64,000 bases of DNA from Fluviicola chungangensis (GTDB taxonomy: Bacteria; Bacteroidota; Bacteroidia; Flavobacteriales_D; Crocinitomicaceae), in assembly GCF_007558725.1 (NCBI RefSeq), contig NZ_VLPL01000006.1:62001-126000 (forward strand), given 5' to 3'. How positions within the stretch are numbered: position 1 is the first letter of the stretch; every line of letters starts with the position of its first letter. The translations under genes and the position numbers were made by a program. A model generated the notes under the pieces. The model worked only from the letters and a program-made list of their open reading frames with translations. It searched no databases and was not told the origin of the DNA. Below, piece after piece: positions 35,756 through 43,431 of the stretch.

Positions 35756-38700
35756 ATGTTTAACAAATTCATACATCGACCTGTTTTAGCTATCGTGCTA
35801 TCATTGGTCATCATCTTCATGGGTGTACTTGCCATCAGTGGATTATCCACTTCACAGTTCCCTGAGATTGCACCACCCACAGTTATTGTACGAGCCTCTT
35901 ATCCGGGAGCAAGTGCGAAAGTATTGACCGAATCCGTTCTGATTCCGTTGGAACAAGCCGTAAATGGTGTTCCCGGAATGAAATACATGACTTCCGATGC
36001 AACGAGTGCCGGGGAAGCGAATATTCAAATCGTGTTCAACTTAGGGACCGATCCCGATCAGGCTCTCGTTCAGGTAAACACCCGCATCGCACAGGTATTG
36101 AATCGTTTACCGGTTCTTGTTCAGCGGGAAGGGGTTATCGTAAACCGCATCATGCCAAGTATGTTGATGTACGTCAACTTATACAGTAAGGATCCAAACG
36201 CCGATATGAAATTTATTTTCAACGTTGCCGGGGTAAACATGATTCCTGAATTGCAGCGTATCAATGGAATTGGTCAGGCAAGTATCCTGGGAAGCCGCCA
36301 GTACGCCATGCGTGTTTGGTTGAAACCGGATCGTATGCGGGCTTACAATGTTTCTGCAGAAGAAGTCCTGGAAGCCTTGAGTTCTCAAAGTGTGATCGGT
36401 TCTCCCGGAAGGATCGGACGAAGTGACGGTAAACGTGCAGAAGCGCTGGAATATGTATTGACTTATAAAGGCCGGTTCAACGAAGCAGACGAATACAAAA
36501 ATGTGATTATACGTTCCAATCCGGATGGAGAGATACTCCGACTGAAAGATGTTGCCAATGTAGAACTCGGTAGTGAGTACTACGATATCTACTCCAACAA
36601 GGACGAATATCCTTCTGCGGCGATTGTATTGAAACAAACTTACGGAAGTAATGCGACAGAAGTAATTGGGCGTGTAAAAGAGAAATTGGAAGAATTGAAA
36701 AAGACTTCCTTCCCTCCGGGAATGGAATACGAGATCAGTTATGACGTTTCGAACTTCCTGGATGCGTCCGTTGAAAAAGTAATCCACACGTTGGGGGAAG
36801 CATTCATCCTTGTGGCATTAGTGGTATTCTTATTTCTAGGCGACTTCCGTTCGACCCTTATTCCAACAATTGCCGTACCGGTCTCCCTGGTCGGGGCATT
36901 CATTTTCATGCAAATGTTCGGTTTGACGATCAACCTGATCACTTTATTCGCATTGGTATTGGCAATCGGTATTGTTGTGGATGACGCTATCGTCGTCGTC
37001 GAGGCCGTCCATGCCAAGATGGAAGAAGAACACCTCTCCCCTTATCAGGCGGTCAAAAAAGTATTGAAAGAAATCAGCGGAGCCGTAATCGCTATTACCT
37101 TATTGATGACCGCCGTATTCGTTCCGGTTGCCTTCATGACTGGTCCGGTAGGGATTTTCTATCGACAGTTCGCGATTACTATGGCAACTTCAATCGTTCT
37201 TTCGGGATTAGTAGCGTTGACTTTGACTCCTGTCCTTTGTGCCATGCTATTGAAAAACAATCACGGAAAACCAAGACGGAGAACACCTATCAATCGTTTC
37301 CTGGATTGGTTCAATCGCGGATTTGAAAAACTGACCGGAAGATATGTCGGGCTTTTAAATAAGATCGTAAACAGAAGACTCATTACTGCTGTTATCCTGA
37401 TTGCATTTGGTATTGGAATCTTCGGATTGAGTGAAAAATTACCTTCCGGTTTCATCCCGAGTGAAGACCAGGGAATGATTTATGCAATTATTCAGACACC
37501 TCCGGGATCAACCCTGGAAAGAACCAACGATATTGCACGGAAACTTCAGGCAATTGCCGAGAAAGTAGAAGGAATCAAATCCGTTTCTGCTTTGGCCGGT
37601 TACGAGGTATTAACAGAAGGTCGGGGTTCCAATGCAGGGACCTGTTTGATCAACCTCGAACCATGGGAAGAACGAAAGCACAATGTACAGGAAATTATTT
37701 ACGAACTGGAAGAGAAAGCTAAAGTCATTCCGGGTGCGACGATTGAGTTTTTCGACCCTCCGGCAGTTCCCGGTTATGGTGCTGCAGGTGGTTTCACCCT
37801 TCAATTGTTGGACAAGACCAACACGGGAGACTACAAGGAACTGGAGCGCGTAAACACGGAATTCATGAATACCTTACGCAAACGGAAAGAGATTACCGGT
37901 TTGTTTACCTTCTATAGTGCGAACTATCCGCAATACGAACTTCAGATCAATAACGATCTGGCCATGCAAAAAGGAGTTTCCATCGGAAATGCGATGAATA
38001 CACTCTCCATTTTGATTGGTAGTACTTACGAGCTTGGTTTCATTAAGTATCAGCGCTTCTTTAAAGTATTCGTTCAGGCATCGCCGGAATACCGTAGATT
38101 ACCTGAAGATATCATGAAGTTATATGTGAAGAATGACCGTGGCGAAATGGTTCCGTTCTCCTCCTTCATGAAGATCGTGAAATCTCAGGGAGCGAATGAG
38201 ATCAACCGTTACAACATGTATACAACAGCATCCATTCGTGGTTCTGCGGCAAAAGGATACAGTTCGGGTGAAGCTATTAAAGCTGCACAGGAAGTTGCCA
38301 AATCGACCTTGCCGAGAGGTTACGACATCGACTGGGGAGGACTTTCCAAAGATGAAGTAATGCGTGGAAATGAAGCATTATATATTTTCATTGTCGTATT
38401 GATCTTCGTATACTTTGTATTGGCAGCTCAATATGAAAGTTTCATCATTCCACTGGCAGTAATTTTCTCACTCCCTGCCGGAGTATTCGGATCATTCTTC
38501 CTGTTGCAAATAATGGGACTGGAGAATAACATTTACGCACAGGTCGGATTAGTCATGCTTGTCGGGCTCCTTGGAAAGAATGCCGTTTTGATCGTGGAAT
38601 TTGCCATGCAGAAACATCACGATGGTGCAACGGTACTGGCAGCGGCTATTGAAGGTGCAAAAGTACGTTTCCGTCCGATCCTGATGACTTCCTTTGCATT

Positions 38701-38965
38701 CATTGCCGGATTGCTGCCGCTTGTTGTGGCAACCGGTCCGGGAGCTATCGGAAACAGGACAATCGGCGCCTGTGCACTCGGAGGAATGCTTTTCGGAACT
38801 ATTTTCGGAGTAATCATTATTCCGGGTCTGTACTATATTTTCGGTACGCTTGCAGAAGGTCGCAGACTGATCAAAAACGAAGACGACAGTTCTCTGACAG
38901 AAGACTTCGTTCATGCAATAGACAATTTCCCAACAACAGATGAAACTGAAGACAATGCGCACTAA
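35756..38965 (+). CDS. RND efflux permease, HAE1/AcrB type (second pump)
   Basis: 1069 residues. FNKFIHRPVLAIVLSLVII and ISGLSTSQFPEIAPPTV are typical of the AcrB/MexB N-terminus. The proton-relay aspartates are D409 and D410 in AIGIVVDDAIVVVEA. GFIPSEDQGMIYAIIQ and GLLGKNAVLIVEFA are conserved landmarks of the second half. The ends overlap the outer-membrane component gene by up to 26 bases, so translation is coupled. Closest in form to hydrophobic and amphiphilic multidrug exporters. Confidence 0.95.
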   Translation: MFNKFIHRPVLAIVLSLVIIFMGVLAISGLSTSQFPEIAPPTVIVRASYPGASAKVLTESVLIPLEQAVNGVPGMKYMTSDATSAGEANIQIVFNLGTDPDQALVQVNTRIAQVLNRLPVLVQREGVIVNRIMPSMLMYVNLYSKDPNADMKFIFNVAGVNMIPELQRINGIGQASILGSRQYAMRVWLKPDRMRAYNVSAEEVLEALSSQSVIGSPGRIGRSDGKRAEALEYVLTYKGRFNEADEYKNVIIRSNPDGEILRLKDVANVELGSEYYDIYSNKDEYPSAAIVLKQTYGSNATEVIGRVKEKLEELKKTSFPPGMEYEISYDVSNFLDASVEKVIHTLGEAFILVALVVFLFLGDFRSTLIPTIAVPVSLVGAFIFMQMFGLTINLITLFALVLAIGIVVDDAIVVVEAVHAKMEEEHLSPYQAVKKVLKEISGAVIAITLLMTAVFVPVAFMTGPVGIFYRQFAITMATSIVLSGLVALTLTPVLCAMLLKNNHGKPRRRTPINRFLDWFNRGFEKLTGRYVGLLNKIVNRRLITAVILIAFGIGIFGLSEKLPSGFIPSEDQGMIYAIIQTPPGSTLERTNDIARKLQAIAEKVEGIKSVSALAGYEVLTEGRGSNAGTCLINLEPWEERKHNVQEIIYELEEKAKVIPGATIEFFDPPAVPGYGAAGGFTLQLLDKTNTGDYKELERVNTEFMNTLRKRKEITGLFTFYSANYPQYELQINNDLAMQKGVSIGNAMNTLSILIGSTYELGFIKYQRFFKVFVQASPEYRRLPEDIMKLYVKNDRGEMVPFSSFMKIVKSQGANEINRYNMYTTASIRGSAAKGYSSGEAIKAAQEVAKSTLPRGYDIDWGGLSKDEVMRGNEALYIFIVVLIFVYFVLAAQYESFIIPLAVIFSLPAGVFGSFFLLQIMGLENNIYAQVGLVMLVGLLGKNAVLIVEFAMQKHHDGATVLAAAIEGAKVRFRPILMTSFAFIAGLLPLVVATGPGAIGNRTIGACALGGMLFGTIFGVIIIPGLYYIFGTLAEGRRLIKNEDDSSLTEDFVHAIDNFPTTDETEDNAH

Positions 38966-40391
38966 AAATAACATCGGGATTTGGGTCATATCAGCCTCCA
39001 TGGCATTGACCATTACAGCTTGCAAGAGCTTGAAAATGAATCCCAAGATAGAAAACAAATACACCCCGGAAGCTTATCAAAGTTCGAAGGATTCCACCAA
39101 TTCGGCAGACATCAAATGGAAAACTTTTTTCCATGACCAATACCTGGTTGCACTGATTGATACGGCCCTGAAAAACAATCAGGAGTTGAACATCACCATC
39201 CAGGAGATCGCAGTTGCCCAATCAGAGGTCAGAGCAAGAAAAGGGGAATTTTTACCTTCTGCGGGAGTGAAAGTTGGGGCCGGGGTAGAAAAGGTCGGTG
39301 AATATACCCGTAACGGGGCAGTTGAAAAAAACTTGCCGATCCGGGACGGAAAAGCCTTCCCTGATCCGCTCGGTGACCTGCAATTAGGTCTGAATGCGTC
39401 CTGGGAAGTCGATATCTGGCGCAAATTGCGCAACGCAAGAGACGCTGCATCTTCCCGTTACCTGGGAACCATCGAAGGGAAAAATTTCATGGTGACCAAC
39501 CTGGTGGCCGAGATTTCCGAATCCTACTATGAGTTGATGGCGCTCGACAACAAGCTGGAGATTTTAAAGCAAAACTTAGAAATCCAGAAAAATGCGCTTG
39601 AAATCGTGAAACTTCAGAAAATCGCGGGTGAAGTAACTGAATTAGCTGTGAAAAAGTTTGAGGCCGAAGTTTACAAAAACCAAAGTCATTTATTCTACCT
39701 GCAACAGCAAATTATCGAAGCAGAAAATCGCATCAACTACCTGGTTGGACGTTTCCCTCAGCCTGTATTACGCAATTCGGCTACATTCCAGCAAATGGTG
39801 CCGGATACCATTTACAATGGGATTCCTTCTCAATTGCTGCAGAACCGTCCGGATATTCGTCAGGCTGAATTGGACCTGGCTGCATCCAAACTGGATATCA
39901 AAGTGGCGAGAGCAAACTTCTACCCTTCCCTGCGCATTACTGCAGGAGTTGGTTACCAGGCATTCAATGTCAAGTATCTGATCACGTCACCACAATCCCT
40001 GCTGTATAATATCGCAGGCGACCTGGTAGCTCCGTTGATCAACAGGAATGCTCTAAAAGCAAAATACGCTTCGGCAAATGCAAAACAAATTCAAGCTGTA
40101 TACAAGTATGAACAAACGATCCTGAATGCGTACATTGAAGTAACCAATCGGGTGACCAAGGTTCAAAACCTGAAAAACAGTTATGAACTGAAGCAGAAAC
40201 AAGTCGATGCCATGAATCAGTCTATTACAATATCGACGAATCTCTTCAAATCTGCCAAAGCAGATTACATGGAAGTCTTAATGACACAACGCGATGCAAT
40301 TGAAGCGAAATTCGACCTGATTGAGATCAAACAGGAACAGCTTTCAAACATGGTCAGTGTTTACCAGGCATTGGGAGGTGGTTGGAGGTAA
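38955..40391 (+). CDS. RND outer-membrane factor lipoprotein (NodT/OprM type)
   Basis: 478 residues. The signal MRTKNNIGIWVISASMALTITAC ends with a lipobox Cys23. EVDIWRKLRNARDAASSRYL and IPSQLLQNRPDIRQAELDLAASKLDI are diagnostic of the NodT family; VARANFYPSLRITAGVGYQ starts the second repeat. It completes the tripartite pump. The ATG at 38955 lies within the end of the permease gene; one five codons earlier (38940) is also possible. Confidence 0.93.
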   Translation: MRTKNNIGIWVISASMALTITACKSLKMNPKIENKYTPEAYQSSKDSTNSADIKWKTFFHDQYLVALIDTALKNNQELNITIQEIAVAQSEVRARKGEFLPSAGVKVGAGVEKVGEYTRNGAVEKNLPIRDGKAFPDPLGDLQLGLNASWEVDIWRKLRNARDAASSRYLGTIEGKNFMVTNLVAEISESYYELMALDNKLEILKQNLEIQKNALEIVKLQKIAGEVTELAVKKFEAEVYKNQSHLFYLQQQIIEAENRINYLVGRFPQPVLRNSATFQQMVPDTIYNGIPSQLLQNRPDIRQAELDLAASKLDIKVARANFYPSLRITAGVGYQAFNVKYLITSPQSLLYNIAGDLVAPLINRNALKAKYASANAKQIQAVYKYEQTILNAYIEVTNRVTKVQNLKNSYELKQKQVDAMNQSITISTNLFKSAKADYMEVLMTQRDAIEAKFDLIEIKQEQLSNMVSVYQALGGGWR

Positions 40392-40450: not shown

Positions 40451-40577
40451 ATTCCCCCTTCTTGTCGTATTAAGAGGATATAAAAAGGAATCCGCTTCTG
40501 GTAAAAGATTCGCTGACAACTTTGAATGCATTTTAGAACTATTTCGGATAAAAAACTCCTTTATTAATCAATTTCAT

Positions 40578-40585
40578 TACCTTTG
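40578..40585 (+). promoter_or_regulatory. -7 box (TACCTTTG) of the Rrf2 regulator gene
   Basis: TACCTTTG is an exact TAnnTTTG, 19 bases before the ATG at 40605. It lies in the AT-rich gap after the RND operon terminator and should be the start of the nitric-oxide-type cluster. Confidence 0.55.
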
Positions 40586-40604
40586 TATCACAACAATAAG
40601 AGCA

Positions 40605-41039
40605 ATGTTTTCAAAAACCTGTGAATACGGAATAAAAGCAACGCTGCACATCGCGTATCAATCTCAGCTGAATAACCGGATCAGCTTAAAGGATATTGCA
40701 AAAGCAATAGATTCACCTGAAGCTTTCACAGCCAAAATTTTACAAATTCTTTCCAAAAACGGAATCCTGAAATCAACGAAGGGTCCGACAGGAGGATTTG
40801 AGATCGAAAAAGAAAACAGGGAAATGATCAAATTGAGCGATATCGTCTTCGCTATAGACGGAAATGAACTCTACAAAGGATGTGGTCTTGGTCTGAAAGA
40901 ATGTAACAGCTTAAAACCATGTCCCCTGCACGATAAATTTATGAGCATCCGGGATGATTTGAAACAAATGCTCGAAACAACAAGCATTGAAGAACTTGCA
41001 AACGGATTAAACAGTGGTTTATCTTTTCTGAAACGTTGA
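40605..41039 (+). CDS. Rrf2-family regulator, NsrR-like
   Basis: 144 residues. MFSKTCEYGIKATLHIAY and ISLKDIAKAIDSPEAFTAKILQIL form the Rrf2 winged helix, with the wing at STKGPTGGFEIEK. Three cysteines, C93, C100 and C106 in KGCGLGLKECNSLKPCPLHD, match the cluster-binding arrangement of NsrR-type nitric oxide sensors. The downstream genes (globin, hemerythrin, ScdA_N) are the kind NsrR controls. The frame is open to 40440 but the domain begins at 40605. Confidence 0.85.
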   Translation: MFSKTCEYGIKATLHIAYQSQLNNRISLKDIAKAIDSPEAFTAKILQILSKNGILKSTKGPTGGFEIEKENREMIKLSDIVFAIDGNELYKGCGLGLKECNSLKPCPLHDKFMSIRDDLKQMLETTSIEELANGLNSGLSFLKR

Positions 41040-41058
41040 AAAAAAATTAAATCAATAA

Positions 41059-41082
41059 AAGATAAAAAGGTCTTAATATCTT
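41059..41082 (+). promoter_or_regulatory. possible operator before the 41106 gene
   Basis: AAGATA, 12 bases, then TATCTT is a perfect 6-bp inverted repeat in the 66-base gap between the Rrf2 regulator and the next gene. It could be a binding site of that regulator. AT-rich chance repeats are common, so confidence is low. Confidence 0.3.
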
Positions 41083-41105
41083 ATAAATTATTAAAAACAA
41101 CTGAT

Positions 41106-41411
41106 ATGAAAGCTTCTGAAACTTCAAAAACCAATTTGAATTGGTTTCAAAAACAAATTGCAAGTTTTGAAAGATCCCGGTTCGGGGCAATGGCAGCTTT
41201 ATTGACTGCTCAAAGCTGTTTTGGTTCCGTTGCGGCTATGTACTCACTCAAAACCCAAAGCTATGTACTCCTGGCAATTTGTGCCAACATTACCATGGCT
41301 TCAAATGGTGCATTTATCGCCCAGGTTTCCGCTAAATGGTGCCTGATCCTCTTCTATTTAAGCGTAATCCTCAACCTGGGAATTCTAATCATCAACTTCT
41401 TTATCCGATGA
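41106..41411 (+). CDS. small membrane protein of unknown function
   Basis: 101 residues with about three hydrophobic helices (FGAMAALLTAQSCFGSVAAMY; SYVLLAICANITMASNGAFI; LILFYLSVILNLGILIINFF) after a short polar N-terminus. No family was recognised. The stop overlaps the globin start by 4 bases (ATGA), which places it firmly in the globin/hemerythrin operon. A role in nitric oxide or heme handling is inferred from context only. Confidence 0.7.
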   Translation: MKASETSKTNLNWFQKQIASFERSRFGAMAALLTAQSCFGSVAAMYSLKTQSYVLLAICANITMASNGAFIAQVSAKWCLILFYLSVILNLGILIINFFIR

Positions 41412-41797
41412 AATCAGCACAAAAACACGACATCCTGGAACTCGAAGACATTCAATTGCTCGTTGATTCCTTCTATTCCAAAGTAAGGGAAAATAAACTC
41501 TTGAATCCCATTTTTCTTGACAAAATCAGTGACGAACAATGGCCTGCACACCTGGATAAGATGTACCGGTTCTGGCAAACGCTTTTACTCGGGGAAATTA
41601 CTTATCAGGGCAATCCGCTCATGCATCATCTCCAATTAGCACTTACTGATGAACATTTCGAGGAATGGCTCCGGCTGTTCCGTGAAACCACGAATCAGCA
41701 CTTCACAGGAGAAAAAGCAGCTGAAGCAACTAGGCGGGCTGAAAAGATCAGGTGGGTCTTCCAAACAAAGATTAAGCAGTTCGGATTAGGCAATTAA
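41408..41797 (+). CDS. group III truncated hemoglobin
   Basis: 129 residues. IQLLVDSFYSKVRENKLLNPIF carries the B-helix aromatic pair; MYRFWQTLLLGEITYQGNPLMHHLQL contains the probable proximal His (H74 region), and LTDEHFEEWLRLFRET is the family-typical G-helix start. Such globins bind O2 or NO and are implicated in nitric oxide detoxification. The start overlaps the upstream membrane-protein stop by 4 bases; a start at 41336 in the same frame would lie inside that gene and is unlikely. Confidence 0.9.
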   Translation: MKSAQKHDILELEDIQLLVDSFYSKVRENKLLNPIFLDKISDEQWPAHLDKMYRFWQTLLLGEITYQGNPLMHHLQLALTDEHFEEWLRLFRETTNQHFTGEKAAEATRRAEKIRWVFQTKIKQFGLGN

Positions 41798-41821
41798 TAA
41801 TCACTCATTAAACAACGACTT

Positions 41822-42736
41822 ATGGACCAAAAAACCATTCTTGAAAAATTAGAAGAAAAATATGTAGAGCAGGGAGAAAACCCGGAAACATACCTAAAAG
41901 GACTGTTTTACAGCAAACCTCTATCCTATTGGGACTATATAGAGGTAGAAACCCTTAATTCTCTTCAAAAACCGAGGACAAATTTCAAAGACGAAGAGAT
42001 TTTCATCATGTATCACCAGGTTACCGAACTGTTTTTTAAAATGATGATCCATGAACTCAAGCAGATGATTCATGAAGATTTGCCCGAAAAAAACCTCCTG
42101 GATAAATTGAATCGGTTGATTAAGTATGCCGAGATCCTCATCAACTCATTTGATGTCATGAAACACGGAATGGATTACGATAATTACAACCAGTTCCGTA
42201 GTTCCTTAACTCCGGCAAGTGGTTTCCAATCTTTCCAGTTCAGAGCAATCGAGCTTTATTGCACACGCATCGGAAACCTGCTATCCGAAAAAAACGGGTC
42301 CATCGCTCCTGAAATCAATGAAGCAGTTTTTGAGCGGTTGTATTGGAAACAGGCTGGTAAAAAACCGGGAGCAAACAGGAAATCTCAAACTCTTTTGCTC
42401 TTTGAAGAAAAATACCAGGAAGACCTGATCTTGCTTGCCCGAAAAGTTCAGGGAAAAACCCTCGAAGAAAAATTACTTGCAATTCCTGATCCGTCCGATG
42501 CACTGGTTCATGCAGCAAAACAATTTGATTTTTTATACAATTTCAAATGGCCGAATGTGCATTTAGAGACCGCTGCACATTACCTGGACAGTAAAGGAGA
42601 AAACCAGGCCGCTACGGGAGGAAGCGAATGGAAAAAGTATCTAAACCCGATCTTTCAGCAGCGCCGTTTTTTTCCGTCTTTCTGGAAAAATGATTCGATG
42701 GAAAACTGGAAAACCAAGGAGCAGATCAACAGATGA
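41822..42736 (+). CDS. tryptophan 2,3-dioxygenase family protein
   Basis: 304 residues. IFIMYHQVTELFFKMMIHELKQM carries the distal His65 and core helix; SGFQSFQFRAIE carries Arg141. WPNVHLETAAHYLDSKGENQ then ATGGSE contains the probable heme ligand His247 and the TGGS (265-268) loop, with about four extra residues between them compared with classical enzymes. Classical members open the indole ring of tryptophan to give N-formylkynurenine. No kynurenine-pathway gene is adjacent, so a different heme role within this cluster is possible. The end overlaps the next gene by 4 bases. Confidence 0.85.
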   Translation: MDQKTILEKLEEKYVEQGENPETYLKGLFYSKPLSYWDYIEVETLNSLQKPRTNFKDEEIFIMYHQVTELFFKMMIHELKQMIHEDLPEKNLLDKLNRLIKYAEILINSFDVMKHGMDYDNYNQFRSSLTPASGFQSFQFRAIELYCTRIGNLLSEKNGSIAPEINEAVFERLYWKQAGKKPGANRKSQTLLLFEEKYQEDLILLARKVQGKTLEEKLLAIPDPSDALVHAAKQFDFLYNFKWPNVHLETAAHYLDSKGENQAATGGSEWKKYLNPIFQQRRFFPSFWKNDSMENWKTKEQINR

Positions 42737-43191
42737 TTAAGGAGGAAAACTGGAACGCTCAATTGGCGCAATTAACATTGGAACATCAAAACAGCTTGCT
42801 GGTATGCTGGAAGATTCGTACCGGTATCCGAAAAGGGATTGAGCTTTCACGTATCAAAGCGTACCTGGATTGGTTTTTTGAAACTCAATTCCTGCCGCAT
42901 CTCCAAAAAGAAGAGCAATTGATGATCCGTATCCTGGGAGAATCTGACCAGATGGTTACCAAATCACTCGCCCAGCACAGGCGATTGAAACGATTATTTT
43001 TAAAGGAAACGGAGTTAATAAAACAATTGAATTCGATTGAAGAAGAGCTGGAAACAAACATCCGGTTTGAAGAAAACAAGGTGTTTAAAGAATTGAAAAG
43101 AAATCCGGACCTTTTCTCCCCGGATTTGGTTTATTACGAGGATGAATGGGAGTCAATCCCCGAAGAATGGGAAGACAAGTTCTGGAAGTAG
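42733..43191 (+). CDS. hemerythrin-like protein
   Basis: 152 residues, all-helical. His18 (LEHQN), His56 and Glu60 (LPHLQKEE), His82 (LAQHRRL) and Glu113/114 (RFEENKVF) give the spacing expected of a di-iron hemerythrin four-helix bundle, as in the C-terminal domain of the Fe-S repair protein Ric/ScdA/YtfE. It overlaps the dioxygenase stop by 4 bases. With the ScdA_N-like protein that follows, it would supply the two halves of Ric as separate polypeptides. Confidence 0.75.
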   Translation: MIKEENWNAQLAQLTLEHQNSLLVCWKIRTGIRKGIELSRIKAYLDWFFETQFLPHLQKEEQLMIRILGESDQMVTKSLAQHRRLKRLFLKETELIKQLNSIEEELETNIRFEENKVFKELKRNPDLFSPDLVYYEDEWESIPEEWEDKFWK

Positions 43192-43236
43192 CCTGACCTT
43201 GAACTCATCGATGACACAAATGAATCAACTGTCAAA

Positions 43237-43431
43237 ATGATTATTACCGGAAATATATCAATTAACGAAATACTGACTAAAAACGAAGAGCTAAATCAGG
43301 TTTTTCAAACGTTCGGGATTGATTGCAAGGCCGAAGGTTCTGAAACACTTTTTGAGGTGTGTGAAGTTCGGAGCATCGATTTTTCTGTATTAAAAGAATG
43401 TTTGGAGATCGTTGATCAGGCCCTTTATTAA
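43237..43431 (+). CDS. ScdA_N/DUF1858-like small protein
   Basis: 64 residues. ISINEILTKNEELNQVFQTFGIDCKAEGSETLFEVCEV resembles the N-terminal domain of ScdA/Ric (pattern FGIDFCCGG-TLEEAC), read here as FGIDCKAEGSETLFEVC with Cys30 and Cys42. It normally precedes the hemerythrin domain in one chain, but here it is a separate gene 45 bases after the hemerythrin-like gene. It ends the cluster; a bidirectional terminator follows. Confidence 0.7.
   Translation: MIITGNISINEILTKNEELNQVFQTFGIDCKAEGSETLFEVCEVRSIDFSVLKECLEIVDQALY

Follow-up and report, generated by a model that had tools for sequence, protein, structure and literature searches.

Results

Gene organization of the locus

The window analysed here is a stretch of 64,000 nucleotides from the genome of Fluviicola chungangensis (contig NZ_VLPL01000006.1, positions 62,001 to 126,000 of the forward strand). 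Its positions 40578-43431 carry six open reading frames (ORFs) on the + strand, in which a heme dioxygenase of the tryptophan-2,3-dioxygenase (TDO) family stands among genes for an Rrf2 regulator, a truncated globin and a hemerythrin-like protein. All six ORFs were recovered by ORF listing and family profile searches, and the layout agrees with the preliminary description of six same-strand genes (40605 to 43431) after one promoter-like element. The features are as follows.

40541..40564, no strand: candidate operator 1, the palindrome ATTTCGGATAAAAAACTCCTTTAT 5' of rrf2, at the place expected for a -33 element; position weight matrix (PWM) score 16.5
40578..40585, + strand: the sequence TACCTTTG, which we take to be a Bacteroidota-type -7 element
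40605..41039, + strand: rrf2, Rrf2 regulator (Pfam and alignment), with E7 and C-x6-C-x5-C-x2-H
41055..41078, no strand: candidate operator 2, degenerate, ATAAAAGATAAAAAGGTCTTAATA; score 9.2, shuffle p 0.006
41106..41411, + strand: small membrane protein without a family match; hydropathy shows two hydrophobic stretches
41408..41797, + strand: truncated globin (Pfam, alignment), group III via the paralogue on contig C6
41822..42736, + strand: TDO-family heme dioxygenase of clade A (Pfam, tree, residues, predicted fold)
42733..43191, + strand: hemerythrin-like protein (Pfam, alignment), H18, H56, E60, H82 and E113 kept
43237..43431, + strand: ScdA_N/DUF1858-like protein of 64 aa, sub-cut-off matches, without the CC motif

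The rrf2 and membrane protein genes are separated by 66 bases, the globin and TDO genes by 24 and the hemerythrin-like and ScdA_N-like genes by 45; the three tight junctions described earlier comprise two 4-base overlaps (membrane protein/globin and TDO/hemerythrin-like) and one near junction. Pfam matches were obtained for the regulator (Rrf2, PF02082, 6.2e-23), the globin (Bac_globin, 5.5e-7), the dioxygenase (Trp_dioxygenase, 1.7e-25) and the hemerythrin-like protein (Hemerythrin, 1.9e-5; 25.6 bits, cut-off 25.3), and the small membrane protein had no family match among Pfam and NCBIfam-type profiles. The earlier assignment of the globin to group III holds through its paralogue on contig C6 of the same genome, which matches 2ig3 ('Group III truncated haemoglobin') at 2e-15, the window copy itself being placed by Pfam and alignment.

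Conservation of the module in relatives and in the same genome

Relatives were collected by scanning genome contigs with a TDO alignment and keeping the best 80 of 582 places, so that these 80 loci were picked by dioxygenase sequence alone; their labels are Bacteroidota or unspecified bacteria, with one Verrucomicrobia. Together with further relatives and the window they form 91 case loci, to which we compared 26 control loci with other TDO genes, hand-chosen from 48 near-full-length weaker matches. A partner gene (globin, Rrf2, RIC of the RIC/YtfE/ScdA type, or hemerythrin-like) was counted when it lay at most 5 kb from the TDO gene and on the same strand. A globin gene was found in 32/80 loci, Rrf2 in 26/80, and RIC and the hemerythrin-like gene in 22/80 each. 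Any of the four was present in 40/80 loci, compared with 0/26 controls (Fisher 7e-7), and at least two in 29/80, counts that are not independent because the loci are akin, L038/L065 and L042/L099 being the same loci twice. Across all 91 case loci, 51 have at least one partner gene, and the profile of the small membrane protein matches near the TDO in 15.

In a tree of 116 TDO sequences, whose bootstrap had not settled, a branch with support of 100/92 separates 81 rows (all 50 linked rows and 31 unlinked ones; clade A) from 35 rows (the 26 controls and nine unlinked rows; clade B), the latter without a single linked row. The module idea had been made to depend beforehand on co-location in relatives, and it came through this comparison, with linked dioxygenases in one supported clade. 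The comparison thus supports a module whose gene content is conserved among relatives. No plasmid relatives of the TDO were found at 1e-20.

Several further observations concern these loci. L062, labelled as a Verrucomicrobia metagenome-assembled genome (MAG), carries the module, and this label may be wrong because its TDO groups with that of a Flavobacteriales MAG. A small family recurs near the TDO in seven loci (L052, L057, L060, L064, L068, L071 and L128), and the one member scanned, from L060, is a hexameric tyrosine-coordinated heme protein (PF11534, 5.8e-35). A 2Fe-2S ferredoxin (one member scanned) recurs as a neighbour in 10 loci.

Besides the window copy, two TDO-family genes were found in the window's own genome, on contigs C6 (61% identical) and C2 (39%), which makes three in all. 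The C6 locus (L034:3191-10055, on an 11.2-kb contig) is a fuller form of the module and has two candidate operators. Its order is rrf2, cbb3-like oxidase subunit I, a FixO/cytochrome c subunit, two small proteins, globin, a 148-aa membrane protein, TDO, full-length RIC (252.7 bits, cut-off 204.7) and the hemerythrin-like protein. Judging by its sequence, the cbb3-like subunit I (L034:3672-5423 and relatives) may be an oxidase or a nitric oxide (NO) reductase. A helix Tyr is kept in 10/10 module copies of this subunit, and Q stands in place of the E of cbb3 in 6/10, the other four being not resolved; the roles that we attach to the Tyr and Q/E positions are assumed.

The regulator and its predicted operator

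E7, the C-x6-C-x5-C pattern and a His three residues after the last Cys are invariant in 36/36 module regulators. The window protein passes the Rrf2 superfamily model (84.1 bits, cut-off 73.3) and lies under every equivalog cut-off, NsrR (PRK11014, 23.7 of 182 bits) and IscR (TIGR02010, 52.4 of 207.55) included. The preliminary description had spoken of NsrR-like cysteines: all three cysteines are indeed present and invariant, and the name NsrR was dropped, as the score falls far short. A three-cysteine pattern is common to other iron-sulfur (Fe-S) Rrf2 regulators, and the cysteines of the window protein appear to fit Rrf2 Fe-S sensors in general. The His occupies what we take to be an IscR-like place. 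The acidic E7 was placed by eye at the position that may correspond to Asp8 of NsrR, a cluster ligand according to PMC9338935.

Upstream of rrf2, at nearly one distance, lies a palindrome of about ATTTnGGAYAAATTTRTCCnAAAT, which scores at least 13 in 34/36 rows. The matrix was built from 24 unique training sites, with the window and L035 left out, and was made symmetric by adding the reverse complements; L035 is the nearest relative of the window operon (83 to 93% identical in five genes). Five of the seven rrf2 rows outside training pass (window 16.5, L035 22.9, L052 14.0, L058 17.3 and L115 13.4), and L040 and L086 fail. There were no matches in the 26 control loci or in nine clade B case loci; shuffling single bases inside blocks of 50 gave a null of 0.05 per 10 kb, and stray matches of at least 13 elsewhere in case loci are few (L055, L060, L071 and L074). 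Over 29 sites the complementary fraction was 0.70 compared with 0.64 when permuted, with 0/2000 permutations as high, and at some inner pairs complementarity was rarer than under permutation.

A second copy of the palindrome, none of whose sites entered the training set, starts 15 to 20 bases past the rrf2 stop in 15/36 rows; the second site of the window stands where relatives have strong ones (9.2, compared with 12.5 in L035). Further palindromes precede globin, RIC, oxidase or TDO genes in L072, L108, L113 and L118, among them the globin gene in L072 and the RIC and globin genes in L108. The palindrome at L118:6198 is situated ~ 53 bases 5' of a clade A TDO without module genes nearby.

Nitrogen-oxide context

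NosD was detected in 6/91 case loci (L069, L073, L075, L076, L079 and L095) and in 0/26 controls; it lies directly upstream on the TDO's strand in L073 and L095, and in the remaining four loci the opposite strand carries it. One strand of L095 (2245-8900) reads NosZ (920.6 bits, cut-off 625), a 334-aa protein, NosD, two further proteins (f9 and f31), TDO and globin, the two further proteins presumably being NosF and NosY, by size and order. The same order is repeated from the 334-aa protein on in L073 (96-5113; NosD 400.1 bits of 300). In relatives, neighbouring RIC and nos (N2O reductase) genes lend further weight to the nitrogen-oxide context, and a nitrogen-oxide role of the module appears to gain indirect support because TDO and globin directly follow nos genes in two of these relatives.

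Could the module answer Fe-S damage, iron or low oxygen in general, rather than NO, with an Rrf2 that acts like IscR? The best NCBIfam equivalog is IscR rather than NsrR, both under cut-off, the His at the presumed IscR-like place is present in 36/36 regulators, and the module includes a cbb3-like oxidase whose helix Tyr is kept in every copy. Nevertheless, RIC, the group III globin and the nos neighbours point to nitrogen oxides, the invariant E7 lies at the putative position of the Asp8 ligand of NsrR, and we regard such a general role as unlikely, although it deserves serious attention.

The dioxygenase and the kynurenine route

The dioxygenase reaches 100.9 bits with the TDO equivalog TIGR03036 (cut-off 390.7), and its C-terminal half aligns weakly, by sequence, to solved TDOs. 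Its predicted model (predicted local distance difference test score, pLDDT, 83.6) matches the Xanthomonas TDO 3bk9 with Z 18.0 and a root-mean-square deviation of 2.6 over 214 residues. Y36, Y39, F61, H65, Y122, R126, H247 and T265 are invariant in 58 clade A rows, and we take these eight to be the heme- and tryptophan-binding positions of known TDOs; fold and residues together place the protein in the TDO family. In 20/47 carrier genomes searched (47 of the 71 clade A loci among the best 80 places) the clade A TDO is the only TDO match found, a count in which absences are soft because many of these genomes are MAGs; eight of the 20 have a partner gene adjoining (L052, L056, L057, L058, L064, L073, L086 and L094). 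Since the TDO fold and pocket are kept and the enzyme is the sole TDO match in these carriers, the clade A dioxygenase most likely still oxidises tryptophan to N-formylkynurenine.

No kynurenine gene was noted beside the module, where neighbours were scanned with Pfam only; contigs C12 and C13 of the window's genome carry kynureninase and TIGR03037 (presumably 3-hydroxyanthranilate 3,4-dioxygenase, 3-HAO). Kynureninase is over cut-off in 47/47 carriers, in G070 by only 0.1 bit, compared with 163/197 class genomes (p 0.0007). De novo synthesis of nicotinamide adenine dinucleotide (NAD) in the genus seems to run through TDO, because kynureninase and TIGR03037 are present in 14/14 genomes and NadA in 0/14; the kynurenine route is the only de novo NAD route seen there.

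Recruitment of the dioxygenase for NO chemistry (NO dioxygenase activity or nitrite reduction) instead of tryptophan oxidation would suit its place among NO-type heme and di-iron proteins, and a weaker TDO match (38-46%; two fragments in G002), present as well in all five genus carriers, could do the ordinary work. This is improbable in our opinion, given that the presumed substrate residues are invariant and that the sole TDO match accompanies kynureninase in the 20 carriers mentioned above, eight of them with a partner gene adjoining.

The window copy and its last two genes

Comparison with L035 yielded ratios of nonsynonymous to synonymous substitution (dN/dS) of 0.030 for rrf2, 0.035 for the membrane protein, 0.098 for the globin and 0.064 for the TDO (dS 0.67 to 1.06), four genes in all, since synonymous sites of the hemerythrin-like gene are saturated. 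Because these values range from 0.03 to 0.10, selection has apparently kept the window operon, and we see it as a version of the fuller C6 module that has diverged yet remained under selection. The long TDO branch (0.82), the lost ligand of the hemerythrin-like protein, the lack of a RIC gene and the weak second operator would be expected of a decaying duplicate of the C6 module, an explanation to which we give little credence, as all ORFs are open and the dN/dS values of the four genes are low.

The ligand in question is the sixth of the iron ligands, whose roles we assume from the hemerythrin pattern: five are kept, and H109 is replaced by N in the window and L035 and is H in 25 other rows. 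Proteins of this family in L036 and L037 are 47% identical to that of the window. The family adjoins full-length RIC, for example in L034 in the window's own genome, and RIC and the hemerythrin-like gene occur together near the TDO in 15 tree rows among the 80 loci. Full RIC is over cut-off in 3/14 genus genomes, including that of the window, each time in a C6-type module. The 64-aa ORF matches DUF1858, ScdA_N and TIGR03980, all under cut-off. In L035 there are 113 bases and no ScdA_N-like gene at that place (that locus only; the rest of the genome was not searched). The Cys pair motif of the RIC N-domain is highly conserved according to PMC9268430. Genes 5 and 6 of the window operon thus do not amount to the ScdA_N domain with CC motif plus hemerythrin domain of RIC/ScdA proteins. 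The earlier suggestion of a split Ric, in which the last two genes jointly do the work of one RIC chain, agrees with the best match of the 64-aa ORF to the N-domains of module RICs (L067, 5e-7) and was rejected as very improbable, because the hemerythrin-like family coexists with full RIC, the CC motif is missing, the gene is not at its place in L035 and full RIC is encoded elsewhere in the genome.

The module is flanked upstream (window 35756-40391) by a 1069-aa transporter-like ORF, presumably of the resistance-nodulation-division (RND) type, and an outer membrane efflux protein, and downstream by a convergent GTPase gene, which we take to be YchF-like.

Discussion

These data are best explained by an operon of Bacteroidota that responds to nitrogen-oxide stress, is controlled by an Rrf2 Fe-S regulator of its own and includes a dedicated TDO isozyme, a reading to which we assign a probability of about 0.55. 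That a conserved, separately regulated module of nitrogen-oxide type with its own TDO clade exists is likely real. In the proposed mechanism, the Fe-S form of Rrf2 would sit on the palindrome upstream of rrf2, and on that after rrf2, blocking the promoter, until NO or another cluster-destroying agent releases it. The operon would then make the group III globin, which may bind NO or O2, and di-iron proteins (full RIC in many relatives, the hemerythrin-like protein in the window operon), together with membrane proteins and, in some relatives, the cbb3-like oxidase. The dedicated TDO isozyme would be made along with these proteins. A favoured but weaker step is that this isozyme keeps the kynurenine route running when NO disables the housekeeping heme enzyme. 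More broadly, we only tentatively suggest that a heme TDO under an NO sensor serves as an NO-proof isozyme or an NO consumer, which would make the breakdown of tryptophan to kynurenine part of the nitrosative stress response in Bacteroidota.

The analysis establishes the gene content, its conservation, the TDO clade, the operator palindrome, the fold, the pocket residues and the presence of pathway genes, and from the sequence we infer NO as the signal, repression and the reason for the TDO. A number of points weigh against this explanation. The regulator falls far below the NsrR cut-off. The second predicted operator of the window is degenerate, and a wider genus regulon was abandoned because the bare, exact 14-base core gives 33 forward matches in 14 genus genomes compared with 20 for the reversed control, little excess (3 and 2 in the window's own genome). 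The partner-gene profiles were built from case loci and may favour cases over controls; none of the four partner genes is present in 40/91 case loci, and linkage seems to have been often gained or lost, because the label requires 10 changes on the TDO tree. Clade A carriers make up 5/14 genus genomes, and NosZ was found in 0/14. Most pocket residues do not vary in 22 clade B rows either, so clade A is not set apart by them. Finally, NAD supply cannot be the general reason for the TDO, because NadA is over cut-off in 20/47 wider carriers.

Compared with known systems, the dioxygenase shares the fold and the heme and substrate residues of the Xanthomonas (2nw8) and Ralstonia (2nox) TDOs, from which it differs in its low TIGR03036 score and its operon context. 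The C6 globin is a sequence relative of the group III truncated haemoglobin 2ig3, and the difference from that system presumably lies in the regulator and the neighbours. As far as PMC1274295 describes it, the NsrR regulon of proteobacteria likewise has an Rrf2-family regulator, a palindromic site and RIC (dnrN) among its targets, whereas the module has another operator and includes a group III globin and a TDO; Bacteroides hcp and B. fragilis dnrN are placed there under HcpR. Relative to the RIC/YtfE/ScdA proteins in PMC9268430, full RIC is encoded in the C6 module and many relatives and is lacking in the window operon. No paper joining TDO to RIC, Rrf2, globin or nos genes in bacteria was found among the matches listed (titles, abstract starts and term counts, with subscription journals largely outside), and a TDO-containing module of nitrogen-oxide type has not been described, as far as the searched literature shows.

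The activity of TDO and of indoleamine 2,3-dioxygenase 1 (IDO1) in mammalian cells shows an increase followed by a decrease under NO, according to PMC10220489. The present analysis puts forward a candidate NO regulon of Bacteroidota together with its operator, and the kynurenine route becomes part of this regulon. A TDO gene appears to have become linked, in the course of evolution, to a module of NO type. A nitrosative stress response that includes tryptophan breakdown would, if true, be the bacterial equivalent of the connection between NO and TDO/IDO in animals.

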